Below, one piece after another: positions 18,167 through 23,429 of a DNA stretch of 46,506 nucleotides (positions are counted from its first letter, which is position 1; every line of letters begins with the position of its first letter). A program made the translations under genes and the position numbers. Origin of the DNA: an uncultured beta proteobacterium (GTDB lineage Bacteria; Pseudomonadota; Gammaproteobacteria; Burkholderiales; Burkholderiaceae_C); contig CAIMBE010000154.1 of assembly GCA_903839085.1 (NCBI GenBank), positions 1 through 46,506 on the forward strand. The letters run 5' to 3'. A model generated the notes under the pieces. The model worked only from the letters and a program-made list of their open reading frames with translations. It did no database searches and was not told the origin of the DNA.

Positions 18167-19098
<932 letters not shown>

Positions 19099-19103
19099 GA
19101 GTT

Positions 19104-19598
19104 CTATTCCTTGTTGACCGGCGTTGATACCAGGCGCGTGCCGGCGAGCGCATCGTGCCAGAACTGTCGCTGCGGGTGGAACTGGCTCAACATCGCCCAC
19201 ACCGCCACCCAACCGACGAAGACGGCTGCCGACTCAGGGCCCGACAACTGAAACGGAGCCATCGCGGCCAGCGCCGGCAGGAACCAGAGCCAGCATAGCA
19301 GGTAGCGCAGCAAGGCGCGCCACTGCGTGAGCGGCTGGCCTGCGCGATCGACGACGCCGATGTGCCAGGTTTTCATGGCCAGGGTTTGTCCCCTGGACCA
19401 GAGCCAGACGAAATAAATGCCAAAGATGACGAAAAGAAAAGCCTGCAATGCGTGGCGATTGTCCATCGCGTTGCGGGTCTGGCTCAGTGCGCCGAACAGG
19501 TAGCCGGCAATGAAGACCACGCCGAACATCAGCATGCCCTCGTACAGCCAGCAAGCCATGCGGCGCGCCAGACCGGGAGTTGCCAGCGCGGAGTTCAT
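19104..19598 (-). CDS. RDD-family membrane protein
   Basis: The 164-residue protein has the RDD opening LARRMACWLYEGMLMFGVVF, where the family Arg is kept, and four hydrophobic helices separated by the conserved SRGQTLAMKTWHIGVVD stretch. RDD proteins are small inner-membrane proteins, some linked to ion transport. I chose the ATG at 19598 because sequence upstream is only antisense to the DUF3106 gene. It is in line with DUF3106 upstream and LOG downstream. Its role is unknown. Confidence 0.85.
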   Translation of the reverse strand: MNSALATPGLARRMACWLYEGMLMFGVVFIAGYLFGALSQTRNAMDNRHALQAFLFVIFGIYFVWLWSRGQTLAMKTWHIGVVDRAGQPLTQWRALLRYLLCWLWFLPALAAMAPFQLSGPESAAVFVGWVAVWAMLSQFHPQRQFWHDALAGTRLVSTPVNKE

Positions 19599-19618: not shown

Positions 19619-20353
19619 TCAATTCTTCTGGGTCGAAGCCGACGCGGATGCCGCTTGCGCGCTCGGCAGCAGGGTTTGGTGAGTCAGCGCATGGCTGGCG
19701 CTTGGCATCTTGGGCGTCGCCTTGGCGGAACTTGACCGTGTTACCGGCACCACGGCCAGTTTCTGCGGCGGAACCGGCTTGGCGGCGGCCGCGGCACCGA
19801 CCGGCTTGGGCACGCCAGACTTGGCAAGTTTTTGTTTTTCCTCGGGGCTGAGTTCCTGATAAGCCTTCCAGGTCTCGGCTTTCTGGCTGGGCGTGAGTTG
19901 CTTTGACTGAGCGAAATTCAAGCGCGCCTGGGCCCTCTGCTGCTGGCTCAGGGACACCCATTCCGACATCCGGCTGTGCAGCTTTTCCTGCTCCGCCGGC
20001 GCGAGCGTTGGATAGCTCGAGGCGATGGCAAGCCACTTGCTCTTTTGAGTCTCGCGCATGGAATTCCACCGGGCGGCGAGCGGTTTGAGCGACATCTGCT
20101 GCACCGGAGTCAGGTCTTGCCAGGCCGGTTTGGACGAGATCGTGGAAGCACCCGTCTTCTTTGTGGTAACGCTGCCAGCGGACGCCTTGGCGACCGCTGG
20201 CGCCGCCACGGGTGCTGTGGCCGCGACCTGCGCCAGCGCGCGGGGCGCCGCCGCACCCAAGGCCAGCAGAAGCGAAAGTGCGCCTGCACCGGCCAGCACG
20301 GCGGTCGTCAATGACCGCCTGGCCTGATTGCTGCAGCGCAGGAACGCAGTCAT
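19619..20353 (-). CDS. DUF3106 periplasmic protein
   Basis: The 244-residue protein has a signal peptide (TTAVLAGAGALSLLLALGAA, cleavage near ALAQ) followed by a low-complexity Ala/Val/Lys linker. A helical core at about 78-178 contains repeated LTPVQQ, LAPAEQ, LSQQQR, LTPSQK and LSPEEK motifs. Such LTxxQ-type repeats are also found in periplasmic Spy/CpxP/CnrX proteins, which is an analogy and not proven homology. The C-terminus is Pro/Ala/Lys-rich. It lies between DUF3619 and RDD genes and is probably co-transcribed with the sigma factor. Confidence 0.85.
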   Translation of the reverse strand: MTAFLRCSNQARRSLTTAVLAGAGALSLLLALGAAAPRALAQVAATAPVAAPAVAKASAGSVTTKKTGASTISSKPAWQDLTPVQQMSLKPLAARWNSMRETQKSKWLAIASSYPTLAPAEQEKLHSRMSEWVSLSQQQRAQARLNFAQSKQLTPSQKAETWKAYQELSPEEKQKLAKSGVPKPVGAAAAAKPVPPQKLAVVPVTRSSSAKATPKMPSASHALTHQTLLPSAQAASASASTQKN

Positions 20354-20363
20354 GGCCAGACTG

Positions 20364-20795
20364 TCAATCTTGTGCCGACCTGATCTTGAGGAATTGTGTG
20401 AAGCCGGGGTCGGTATAAGCGGCCGGGGGCAGGTCGTCGGTCAGCAAAGCAGCGTCAATTTCGGCGATTTCACTGGCGCGCCTGTCGTTTTGGATGACGC
20501 TGATGGCGATCAGGCCCAGAATCAGGAGCAGCAGGGGAATCACGGTCGCGACACGATCCCACCAGTTGAGGTCCTCGGTCCCGAAGGTGAGCGTGCCCGC
20601 GCCGCCGCTTTGCGACACGCTGCTGGCGGTCCTTGCGCCGACCTTGCGTTTGCCCAGCGCCTGCATCCGGGCCGCGCGCAAGCGCTCCGAAATCTCGTAG
20701 GGGAGGTCGTCGGCAGCGTCAGAAAGGCGCGCCGTCACACGCAAACCGAAACGGTCCTGCGCCAACTGGTTTTGATAAAGATGTGAATTGGTCAT
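20364..20795 (-). CDS. DUF3619 single-span membrane protein (candidate anti-sigma factor)
   Basis: The 143-residue protein has a roughly 80-residue soluble N-terminal part (SDAADDLPYEISERLRAARM), one membrane helix at about 83-101 (VATVIPLLLLILGLIAISV) and a short acidic periplasmic tail. I chose ATG 20795, which overlaps the sigma factor stop by four bases; the longer frame to 20879 is antisense noise. Position and topology fit a transmembrane anti-sigma factor, but this is inference because no anti-sigma motif (for example HxxxCxxC) is visible. Confidence 0.85.
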   Translation of the reverse strand: MTNSHLYQNQLAQDRFGLRVTARLSDAADDLPYEISERLRAARMQALGKRKVGARTASSVSQSGGAGTLTFGTEDLNWWDRVATVIPLLLLILGLIAISVIQNDRRASEIAEIDAALLTDDLPPAAYTDPGFTQFLKIRSAQD

Positions 20796-21358
20796 GTTTT
20801 TATTCCCTTTGCCCGCAAGGCTTTGCCAAGGGCCTGGACCGCCCTCGAACAGTGCGTTTTGACACTGCCCTCCGAGCAACCCATGGCCGCAGCAGTCTCT
20901 GCCACGTCCATCTCTTCCCAGTAACGCATGAGGAATGCTTCCCGTTGACGCCCTGGCAATTGTTGGATCTCGATCTCGATCGCACGCAAGGTTTGTGCCC
21001 GTTGTGCCGAGGTTTCCGGACTTTCTGCAAAGTCTGATTCGCTTTGGACGTTCAAAGTTCCCAGAAGATCGAACTCGCCGTCTTCCCCCTCGGAATCAAA
21101 ATCGCTGAGGTTGGAAAACAGGATGTTTCTGGTCTTTTGACGCCTGAACCAGTCCAGCGTGCAATTGGACAGGATCCGCTGGAACAGCATCGGCAACTCG
21201 GCGGCCGGCTTCTCGCCGTAGTGCTCGGCAAGCTTCATCATGCTGTCCTGCACAATGTCCAGTGCCGATTCCTCATTGCGCACGTGGTAGACCGAGCGCT
21301 TGAAAGCGCGTCTTTCAACGCTCTTCAAAAAGTCGGAAAGTTCTTGTTCGGTTGCCAA
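20792..21358 (-). CDS. ECF-type RNA polymerase sigma factor
   Basis: The 188-residue protein has sigma region 2 (about residues 10-75, with NEESALDIVQDSMMKLAEHY and TLDWFRRQ) and region 4 (about 125-180, with LPGRQREAFLMRYWEEMD and a helix-turn-helix ending EGSVKTHCSRAVQAL). Regions 1 and 3 are absent, as in ECF sigma factors. An acidic linker (DFDSEGEDGEFD) joins the domains. Its stop overlaps the DUF3619 start, so both are made together. The gene is divergent from ilvB across a 268-base spacer with no clear ECF promoter match that I can assign. Confidence 0.93.
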   Translation of the reverse strand: MATEQELSDFLKSVERRAFKRSVYHVRNEESALDIVQDSMMKLAEHYGEKPAAELPMLFQRILSNCTLDWFRRQKTRNILFSNLSDFDSEGEDGEFDLLGTLNVQSESDFAESPETSAQRAQTLRAIEIEIQQLPGRQREAFLMRYWEEMDVAETAAAMGCSEGSVKTHCSRAVQALGKALRAKGIKT

Positions 21359-21626
21359 GCGACAGCGGCCTTCATGCGGCGGTGAGGTTTTTTCGCGATT
21401 TCACGGTCTTGATTATGGCATTGGGGCTCGATCGGTCGGTTGCCTGGAAAGCCACCATTTCAAGCAGTGCCATAATATGCGCTGCAATTCAAAAGGCAAA
21501 CGGGTCACGGTCCGGCGCACGAATCACTGCGCTCATGGCTTTGGCTTTAAGTTCCGACGCGACTCCACAAGTGTTTGCGAAGGGGTACCCAAGGTTTTTC
21601 GTCAGAGAAATTCACAAAGGTTGATC

Positions 21627-23429
21627 ATGAAAATTTCAAAAGCAGAAATCATTCCGGCTGCGTCGGCAGCGAGCCCCGCCAAGACAGCGTCCGCCACTTC
21701 CCCTGGCGAGCACGATCTGCGCGGCGCCGAAATACTGGTCAAAGCCCTGCAGGCCGAAGGCGTCAGATACGTCTGGGGCTACCCCGGCGGCGCGGTCCTG
21801 CACATCTATGATGCTTTCTACAAGCAGGATACGATCCAGCACATTCTGGTGCGCCATGAGCAGGCCGCAGTGCACGCGGCCGATGGTTACGCCCGCGCCA
21901 CCGGCGATGTCGGTGTCGCCCTCGTCACCTCGGGCCCGGGTGTCACCAACGCCGTGACCGGCATCGCCACCGCCTACATGGACAGCATTCCGATGGTGAT
22001 CGTGACCGGGCAGGTGCCAACCCATGCGATCGGGCTCGACGCGTTCCAGGAATGCGACGCCGTCGGCATCACGCGACCGGTCGTGAAGCACAACTTTCTG
22101 GTCAAGGACACGCGCGATCTGGCCGAAACCATGAAGAAGGCATTCCACATTGCCCGCAGCGGGCGCCCCGGACCGGTCGTGGTTGACATTCCCAAGGACG
22201 TTTCGTTCAGGAAAGTGCCTTACACGGGTTACCCGGCCAGCGTGGAAATGCGCTCCTACAACCCGGTTCGAAAGGGTCACGGCGGCCAGATCCGCAAGGC
22301 GCTGCAACTGCTGCTGGCGGCCAAGCGGCCCTATATCTACACTGGCGGCGGCGTGATCCTGAGCAATGCATCGGCCGAACTGCGCACCCTGGTCGACATG
22401 CTGGGCTATCCCTGCACCAACACCCTGATGGGTCTGGGTGCCTACCCGGCCAGCGACCGCAAGTTTCTCGGCATGCTGGGCATGCACGGGACGGTCGAAG
22501 CCAACAACGCGATGCAGAACTGCGATGTGCTGCTGGCGGTGGGCGCGCGTTTCGACGACCGCGTGATCGGCAACCCGAAGCACTTCGCCCAGAACGAGCG
22601 CAAGATCATCCACATCGACATCGATCCGTCGAGCATTTCGAAACGCGTCCGGGTCGACATCCCGATCGTCGGCGACGTCAAGGAGGTGCTGACCGAGATG
22701 ATCGCCATGATCAGGGAAGGGTCGATCAAACCGGATGCGCAGTCTCTGGCCGGCTGGTGGGAGACGATCGAGAACTGGCGCAAGCGCGACTGCCTCAAAT
22801 ACGATCCCGGCAGCAACGATGTGATCAAGCCGCAGTACGTGATCGAGACGATCTGGAACATGACGAAGGATGTCGACGCCTACATCACCTCCGATGTCGG
22901 GCAGCACCAGATGTGGGCAGCGCAGTACTACCGCTTCGACGAACCACGGCGATGGATAAATTCGGGCGGTCTCGGAACCATGGGCGTGGGCATTCCGTAC
23001 GCCATGGGTATCAAGATGGCCAAACCCGACAGCGAGGTGTTCTGCATCACCGGCGACGGCTCGGTGCAGATGTGCATCCAGGAACTGTCGACCTGCCTGC
23101 AGTACAACACGCCGATCAAGATCGTGTCGCTCAACAACCGCTACCTTGGCATGGTTCGCCAGTGGCAGGAGGTCGAGTACGAGGGCCGCTACAGCCACAG
23201 CTACATGGACGCGCTGCCCAATTTCGTGAAGCTCGCCGAGGCCTACGGCCACGTCGGCATGCTGATCGAACGCGCGCAGGACGTCGAGCCGGCGCTGCGC
23301 GAAGCACGCAAGCTCAAGGATCGCACCGTCTTCATGGACTTCCGAACCGACCCGACCGAAAACGTGTTTCCGATGGTGAAGGCCGGCAACGGCATTACCG
23401 AGATGCTGCTCGGCTCGGAAGACCTTTAA
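21627..23429 (+). CDS. ilvB: Acetolactate synthase large subunit
   Basis: The 600-residue ThDP enzyme makes acetolactate or acetohydroxybutyrate, committing carbon to Val, Leu and Ile. The catalytic Glu is in LVRHEQAAVHAADGYAR, an FAD-domain segment reads RFDDRVIGN, and the ThDP-Mg motif is GDGSVQM through NNRYLGMVRQWQ. I chose ATG 21627 because CAAAGG lies eight bases upstream; longer frames have no ribosome-binding site. The 268-base spacer upstream has no obvious branched-chain leader peptide. A CATAAT hexamer near 21471 could be a -10 box but lacks a matching -35. Confidence 0.96.
   Translation: MKISKAEIIPAASAASPAKTASATSPGEHDLRGAEILVKALQAEGVRYVWGYPGGAVLHIYDAFYKQDTIQHILVRHEQAAVHAADGYARATGDVGVALVTSGPGVTNAVTGIATAYMDSIPMVIVTGQVPTHAIGLDAFQECDAVGITRPVVKHNFLVKDTRDLAETMKKAFHIARSGRPGPVVVDIPKDVSFRKVPYTGYPASVEMRSYNPVRKGHGGQIRKALQLLLAAKRPYIYTGGGVILSNASAELRTLVDMLGYPCTNTLMGLGAYPASDRKFLGMLGMHGTVEANNAMQNCDVLLAVGARFDDRVIGNPKHFAQNERKIIHIDIDPSSISKRVRVDIPIVGDVKEVLTEMIAMIREGSIKPDAQSLAGWWETIENWRKRDCLKYDPGSNDVIKPQYVIETIWNMTKDVDAYITSDVGQHQMWAAQYYRFDEPRRWINSGGLGTMGVGIPYAMGIKMAKPDSEVFCITGDGSVQMCIQELSTCLQYNTPIKIVSLNNRYLGMVRQWQEVEYEGRYSHSYMDALPNFVKLAEAYGHVGMLIERAQDVEPALREARKLKDRTVFMDFRTDPTENVFPMVKAGNGITEMLLGSEDL

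Follow-up and report, generated by a model that had tools for sequence, protein, structure and literature searches.

A conserved gene trio of an ECF sigma factor, DUF3619, and DUF3106 as a probable transmembrane regulatory module

Introduction

What role do proteins of the families DUF3619 and DUF3106 play when they are encoded directly behind the gene of an extracytoplasmic function (ECF) sigma factor? This question is raised by a locus in contig CAIMBE010000154.1 of an uncultured beta proteobacterium of the order Burkholderiales (assembly GCA_903839085.1), of which we analyzed positions 1 to 46,506 as one stretch of DNA, called the window below. On the minus strand of the window, the genes for the sigma factor, DUF3619, DUF3106, an RDD-family membrane protein, and a LOG-type protein follow each other in this order; the start of the DUF3619 gene overlaps the stop of the sigma gene by four bases, and the DUF3106 gene begins ten bases past the DUF3619 gene, all of which agrees with an earlier note on this DNA. 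Our comparative analysis suggests that the first three genes probably encode a transmembrane module of a sigma factor, an anti-sigma factor, and a periplasmic partner. DUF3619 is likely to be the anti-sigma factor of this trio, and we infer that it binds and inhibits the sigma factor while DUF3106 serves as a sensor or co-regulator.

A full-text literature search for the names DUF3619, DUF3106, and PRK09047 returned no paper (supplements and the main ECF reclassification paper, which may list DUF3619 as a putative anti-sigma factor, lay outside its scope). Searches on the operon and on Cnr and CpxP returned none either, and no such trio was named among the papers listed by further searches. 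In Burkholderia, linkage to anti-sigma genes is reported for ecfA, ecfB, and ecfF (PMC2194791), which may or may not include the sigma factor studied here.

Results

The trio is conserved within Burkholderiales

Among 300 genomes of the order, both DUF families were found in 211, DUF3619 alone in 6, DUF3106 alone in 8, and neither in 75, so that DUF3619 is present in 217 and DUF3106 in 219 of these genomes (Fisher test 1e-53, not corrected for relatedness). From the order we compiled 220 loci (L002–L221), which include some genomes twice and contain 208 distinct sigma/DUF3619 pairs; 29 loci from named relatives belong to Rhodoferax, Comamonas, Ramlibacter, Polaromonas, and other Burkholderiales or betaproteobacteria. 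The order sigma–DUF3619–DUF3106 is kept in 213 of the 220 loci. The seven others comprise four chance hits (L070–L073), one locus with a run of N in place of the sigma region (L035), one truncated at the end of its contig (L186), and L102, where no DUF3106 was found and around 2 kb separate a short DUF3619 match of 61 residues from a more distant ECF sigma gene.

The overlap seen in the window is similarly widespread: A start codon giving a four-base overlap of the sigma and DUF3619 genes exists in 180 of 214 loci (150 ATG, 30 GTG) or 174 of 207 distinct pairs, with starts picked as those nearest to the sigma stop, a rule that favors short gaps. There is no further in-frame ATG within 60 bases in 152 of these 180 loci, and the relative frame of the two genes is identical in 188 of the 214.

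The trio is found beyond the order

The trio persists in other families and in another class. In a phylum sample of 398 genomes, 45 had a DUF3106 match, and 20 stretches (L255–L274) were examined. Twelve of the 13 strong DUF3106 loci among them (L255–L267) have a sigma gene upstream (E 2e-38 to 2e-53), separated from DUF3106 by one short gene, called the middle gene below. Under the nearest-start rule, its overlap with the sigma gene amounts to four bases in 11 loci and to eight in the other. Restriction of the trio to close relatives, which the earlier note had named as the outcome that would speak against the module, was not what we found.

The middle genes are recognizable as relatives of DUF3619. 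HMMER detected 8 of the 12 at E 6e-6 to 0.01 with a DUF3619 profile that had been built with two chance hits (L072 and L073) among its 221 sequences, and hhalign, run with an alignment cleaned to 208 pairs, matched ten middle proteins to DUF3619 at 97.2–97.5% (pairwise E-values of 4e-11 to 6e-12), with reversed and swapped control profiles staying below 2%. The profile that contained the two chance hits also served for the HMMER scans of the f57 loci described below. An RLxxAR-like pattern fits nine of the ten middle proteins and an FYxWL-like pattern five. The weak DUF3106 matches (L268, L272–L274) had no such sigma gene alongside. RDD had no match in L255–L274, and neither RDD nor acetolactate synthase was found in the stretches of around 10 kb outside the order.

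A search of the 398 genomes with the Pfam model of DUF3619 itself gave four weak hits, which we rejected as operons of this kind: On rescanning with the DUF3619 profile, nothing was detected in L070 and only E 0.16 was reached in L071, while in L072 and L073 (one genus) the profile aligns with 52 residues of a 268-residue frame that has no sigma gene near it.

Natural fusions join the components in one family

The best evidence for a putative assembly of sigma factor, DUF3619, and DUF3106 comes from natural fusions in one family that lies outside the order but in the same class (f57). In this family, 96 of 99 genomes encode DUF3106, and 29 of the loci of the 30 best DUF3106 matches have the sigma gene (in the exception, the match begins 318 bases into its contig), with a four-base overlap of sigma and middle gene in 26 of the 29 (rule akin to nearest start). 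Second copies of DUF3106 in f57 (L269–L271) are preceded by a single gene of around 340 residues in place of two (Table 1). Its product was matched in 82 of the 99 genomes, or 76 after setting aside six whose sole match is short (around 60–72 residues near the protein start) and may represent ordinary sigma genes, and it is often accompanied by an intact trio in the same genome.

The two halves of the fused protein were compared separately by hhalign with a profile built from 29 of 30 fused proteins. The first roughly 140 residues match the sigma profile (97.0%, E 9e-11, 120 columns), and the remainder matches the middle proteins (96.8%, E 3e-10, 108 columns) as well as DUF3619 (81–89%, E 1e-5 to 2e-6, over only 31 columns); swapped and reversed controls were empty. 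The sigma part aligns over the stretch that we assigned to regions 2.1–2.2, and it is degenerate, lacking the basic stretch past region 2.2: There, lysine and arginine number 1.5 per 18 residues in fused proteins, compared with 7.0 in the canonical sigma factors of f57 and 4.6 in those of the order (measurable in 25 of 30, 25 of 29, and 186 of 214, respectively).

DUF3106 was matched beside the fused gene in 27 of the 30 best loci at a loose threshold (E up to 1). In 12 of 50 loci, i.e., 3 of the 30 best and 9 of 20 further ones, sigma-like part, DUF3619-like part, and DUF3106 even share one open frame; eight of the further loci had been preselected by equal match frame lengths and were all joined, as was one of the other twelve. 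These frames run from stop to stop, and a separate internal start is possible. Between the DUF3619-like span and DUF3106, none of the 12 joined frames has an extra hydrophobic segment above the cut-off, and DUF3106 would therefore be exported by the DUF3619-like span, which in the joined frame of L336 itself falls under the cut-off. A tblastn screen of 72,556 plasmid records yielded no match at E 0.001 for either the fused protein or DUF3619.

DUF3619 has one span and a conserved tail

The DUF3619 protein of the window has one membrane segment at around residues 84–102, lying within helix 78–119 of its AlphaFold model, which also places two low-confidence helices at 3–29 and 33–60 of the N-terminal part. 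Among 208 distinct homologues, the main hydrophobic segment exceeds the cut-off in 171 and a second one is seen in 2, and the tail after the span averages around 42 residues. Positive charge is higher before the span in 132 homologues, higher after it in 23, and equal in 53, which places the N terminus inside, outside, or leaves it undecided, respectively. DUF3619 thus has the adjacency to a sigma gene, the single span, and the cytoplasmic N terminus that are sought in an anti-sigma factor, with the topology derived from hydrophobicity and charge counts only.

Positions conserved in more than 80% of these homologues cluster on both sides of the span. The cytoplasmic part holds L24, R38, L39, A42, R43, and A46, and the tail holds D114, L118, L122, P123, A126, Y127, D129, and F132 (pattern D114..LP123..AY127.D129..F132). 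Pfam and NCBIfam recognized no class I (ASDI) or zinc anti-sigma domain in DUF3619 in a scan that did not include the ASDI models of PMC7406223, and the two NCBIfam matches both stay far under their cut-offs.

DUF3106 is a helical protein with an export-like start

DUF3106 of the window has a signal peptide-like start, a flexible linker, a helical domain at around 78–180, and a proline- and alanine-rich tail; AlphaFold models the helical domain with seven helices (block means of the predicted local distance difference test (pLDDT) score of 86–95 over residues 81–180). An N-terminal hydrophobic segment is present in 157 of the 207 homologues with the starts used, and AxA lies past the most hydrophobic stretch in 152, so that the protein appears to start like an exported one. 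Conserved residues are W78, W96, W132, and W162 together with R128, R140, and R144, and no alignment column exceeds 20% histidine or 9% cysteine. The repeated LTPxQ-type motifs described in the earlier note are present as LTPVQQ, LAPAEQ, LSQQQR, LTPSQK, and LSPEEK.

We considered CnrX, CpxP, and Spy as templates of the DUF3106 fold and did not adopt them: Foldseek found nothing and hhalign nothing or a weak likeness, which for the family of CpxP and Spy speaks neither for nor against a relationship. In detail, Foldseek against the PDB gave no hit at E 0.001 or better (best 2.6; no positive control), Pfam found no match to PF13801 (Metal_resist), and hhalign comparisons with CpxP and Spy one at a time gave no convincing match. 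With a set of 30 LTXXQ-type sequences, DUF3106 shows a weak likeness (28.5%, E 6e-4), compared with 95.9% and 97.7% for CpxP and Spy, with which this set had been recruited; the NCBIfam CpxP model gives E 0.068. No hhalign profile match was found to the single CnrX sequence, a weak test in that the true LTXXQ set also missed CnrX (0.2%).

In another family, f79 (L265, L266, and L267), a small exported-looking protein with a motif like ELFEFIADWE..DGQWVEP is encoded directly before DUF3106.

The sigma factor and its upstream region

The sigma gene product of the window is assigned to the ECF sigma factors by family models that score above their cut-offs (NF006550, 264.8 bits against 173; TIGR02937, 67.5 bits against 42.9). 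Pfam gives 60.9 bits for region 4 and, for region 2, 18.1 bits, under the cut-off of 24. Two cysteines of region 4, Cys161 and Cys170, are present in all 208 aligned homologues of the order, and a redox or metal role for them is possible. Among the f57 sigma factors inspected, the first of these cysteines is kept and the second is not.

Upstream of the sigma gene (window positions 21359–21627 and homologous gaps), the strongest shared word is GGTCAAG, found in 82 of 201 sequences versus 1.5 expected. It reads as a TTGACC −35 box on the opposite strand that would face the divergent gene, and is therefore uninformative on autoregulation of the sigma factor.

Neighboring genes

Within the order, RDD is usually the next gene in the operon (63 of 70, 96 of 119, and 28 of 29 loci in three sets), while the LOG gene was found in 2, 0, and 15 loci of these sets (17 of 218). 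Two of the 70 loci are chance loci, and those of 3 kb possibly end before LOG would be reached. The gene was seen in the window itself, in another locus of the window's family, and in 15 loci from named close relatives, i.e., LOG is a local neighbor and not a conserved part of the module. Of the two proteins that the earlier note had regarded as co-expressed outputs, RDD is thus often linked to the trio within the order, whereas the loci lend no support to LOG as such an output. A homologue of the divergent acetolactate synthase lies beside the sigma gene in 150 of 220 loci. At the far end lies a P-II nitrogen regulator gene (18179–18517; PF00543, E 6e-34), which is convergent with the LOG gene and shares four bases with it where the two end.

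Table 1. Genes of the trio locus in the window and the fused gene of family f57.
Feature	Position	Strand	Description
ECF-type sigma factor gene	20792..21358	minus	TTG start, 188 aa; NCBIfam NF006550 (PRK09047)
DUF3619 gene	20364..20795	minus	143 aa; PF12279, Pfam E 1.6e-43; proposed anti-sigma factor
DUF3106 gene	19619..20353	minus	244 aa; PF11304, Pfam E 3.2e-30; proposed periplasmic partner
RDD-family membrane protein gene	19104..19598	minus	164 aa; Pfam RDD, E 3.1e-15
LOG-type (TIGR00730) Rossmann protein gene	18514..19098	minus	194 aa; PF03641, E 5.4e-43
Acetolactate synthase large subunit gene	21628..23429	plus	divergent neighbor of the sigma gene
Fused protein P0005	L270:3863-4879		degenerate sigma domain joined to DUF3619-like membrane protein; relatives in L275-L304 and L335-L354

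Discussion

A model of the module and its support

We propose that DUF3619 is probably made in step with the sigma factor by means of the four-base overlap and that its N-terminal helices, with L24 and RLxxARxxA at 38–46, would hold the sigma factor at the inner face of the membrane. The single span would carry the short conserved tail (D..LL..LP..AY.D..F) into the periplasm, where the helical domain of DUF3106 would bind it. A periplasmic event that alters the contact of tail and DUF3106, or that causes cleavage of DUF3619, could then free the sigma factor.

A degenerate sigma domain that keeps its 2.1–2.2 side and is joined to a DUF3619-like protein would be expected if DUF3619 is such a sigma-gripping partner. 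In class I anti-sigma factors, one helix grips sigma regions 2.1–2.2 and a second one region 4, and CnrY and a class III example bind in a similar two-sided manner (PMC7406223); the side retained in the fusions is thus the side gripped by known anti-sigma factors. The conserved tail together with the link to DUF3106 in the joined frames suggests that DUF3106 sits on the tail and relays or damps a periplasmic signal.

Several observations weigh against this reading. The AlphaFold model of DUF3619 is poor (mean pLDDT 61.6) and has no PDB match at E 0.001 or better; Pfam finds no known anti-sigma domain in the protein (E up to 1; one chance-level extra match), and there is no profile match to CnrY (PF17524), though CnrY itself scores PF17524 at 4.4e-52. 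Mean-field direct-coupling analysis of 206 sigma/DUF3619 pairs (effective number 140) placed 14 of the top 30 pairs in DUF3619 residues 1–78, which hold 56 of its 114 columns, and with too few sequences gave neither enrichment nor a believable interface. An ECF-type −35/−10 pair is not enriched upstream of the sigma gene, leaving autoregulation unsupported. Outside the order, both the sigma gene and the middle gene are missing from the surroundings of one strong DUF3106 locus (L267), and 5 of the 12 joined frames match DUF3106 only weakly (E 2e-4 to 7e-4). As the fused sigma domain is degenerate, the fusion does not necessarily reflect how the intact trio works. The interpretation in the earlier note is partly sustained: The conserved module with DUF3619 as the likely anti-sigma factor is supported by the natural fusions and the conserved overlap, which weigh more than what that note could draw on, whereas the likeness to CnrX and LOG as a co-regulated output find no support.

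Alternative explanations

It is distinctly possible, if not what we favor, that DUF3106 is an output or helper of the system, i.e., a periplasmic chaperone-like protein loosely resembling CpxP or Spy that feeds back on DUF3619 and the sigma factor while another protein does the sensing. CpxP itself is a feedback regulator, and the LTPxQ-type motifs and the weak likeness of DUF3106 to the LTXXQ set and the CpxP model fit this explanation. However, neither CpxP nor Spy singly gave a convincing profile match and no fold match was found, and the 12 of 50 loci in which DUF3106 is joined to a DUF3619-like tail in one frame are easier to reconcile with a built-in part than with a free output.

In our view it is unlikely that DUF3619 serves as a tether by which the sigma factor is activated or delivered, i.e., as a positive or two-way regulator instead of an inhibitor. 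FecR-type proteins can be positive or two-way regulators, and all of our evidence shows association and not the sign of the effect of DUF3619. Fused sigma/anti-sigma proteins that are released by proteolysis are known, e.g., IutY (PMC8999054). Very improbable, finally, is an adjacency by shared inheritance only, with DUF3619 and DUF3106 functionally untied to the sigma factor: The location beside acetolactate synthase is widely conserved and our co-occurrence test ignores relatedness, but the trio also occurs in further families and in a second class, where neither RDD nor acetolactate synthase was found in the stretches of around 10 kb, the overlap of sigma and middle gene is kept there, and the natural fusions speak strongly against it.

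A module of sigma factor, anti-sigma factor, and periplasmic partner would give two DUF families, each present in around seven of ten sampled genomes of a large order, one concrete job, in which DUF3619 would form the membrane half and DUF3106 the periplasmic half of a switch for an ECF sigma factor. A sigma factor that is widely conserved would thereby become accessible to testing by a simple deletion, and the natural single-chain versions offer a direct template for modeling or solving the complex. The fusions with a degenerate sigma domain are the most unusual part of the system. The f57 module may be a membrane protein whose sigma-like domain is probably unable to read promoters and which either competes as a tethered mimic for the partners of the intact trio or is out of transcription altogether, though we hold this tentatively and rate it somewhat short of probable. 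Either role, if true, would be a new use of the sigma fold, and the fused chain would show the assembly of the intact trio.

Comparison with known systems

The trio resembles RpoE–RseA and other class I (ASDI) pairs in that the sigma gene lies near the gene of a membrane protein whose N terminus is helical and cytoplasmic, as in RseA. DUF3619 differs from these pairs by having no anti-sigma domain known to Pfam and a tail of only around 42 residues on average. CpxP and Spy of the LTXXQ family (PF07813) are, like DUF3106, exported helical proteins with LTxxQ-type motifs; the profile likeness of DUF3106 to this family is weak and by itself indecisive (28.5%), and no PDB fold match was found.

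In the Cnr system for nickel and cobalt of Cupriavidus metallidurans (plasmid pMOL28), an ECF sigma factor, a small anti-sigma factor, and a periplasmic protein are likewise encoded together, and CnrY is a small anti-sigma factor with two cytoplasmic helices (PMC7406223). The earlier note had given the Cnr genes in the sigma-first order CnrH/CnrY/CnrX, which is wrong: According to the sequence record, they run from anti-sigma factor over sensor to sigma factor (cnrY-cnrX-cnrH), in contrast to sigma, DUF3619, and DUF3106 here. In addition, there is no profile match of DUF3619 to CnrY or, in weak tests, of DUF3106 to CnrX, and DUF3106 is without conserved histidine or cysteine. The likeness of DUF3106 to CnrX that had been assumed in the earlier note is thus not borne out by fold, profile (a weak test), residues, or gene order.

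Fused sigma/anti-sigma proteins are already known as a kind, with IutY (ECF243) and the groups ECF48, ECF52, ECF53, and ECF36 as examples (PMC8999054). The f57 chain is like the IutY-type fusions in combining a sigma part and a membrane anti-sigma part in one chain, and it differs from them by the loss of the basic stretch past region 2.2 and by the DUF3106 domain that may be joined to it.
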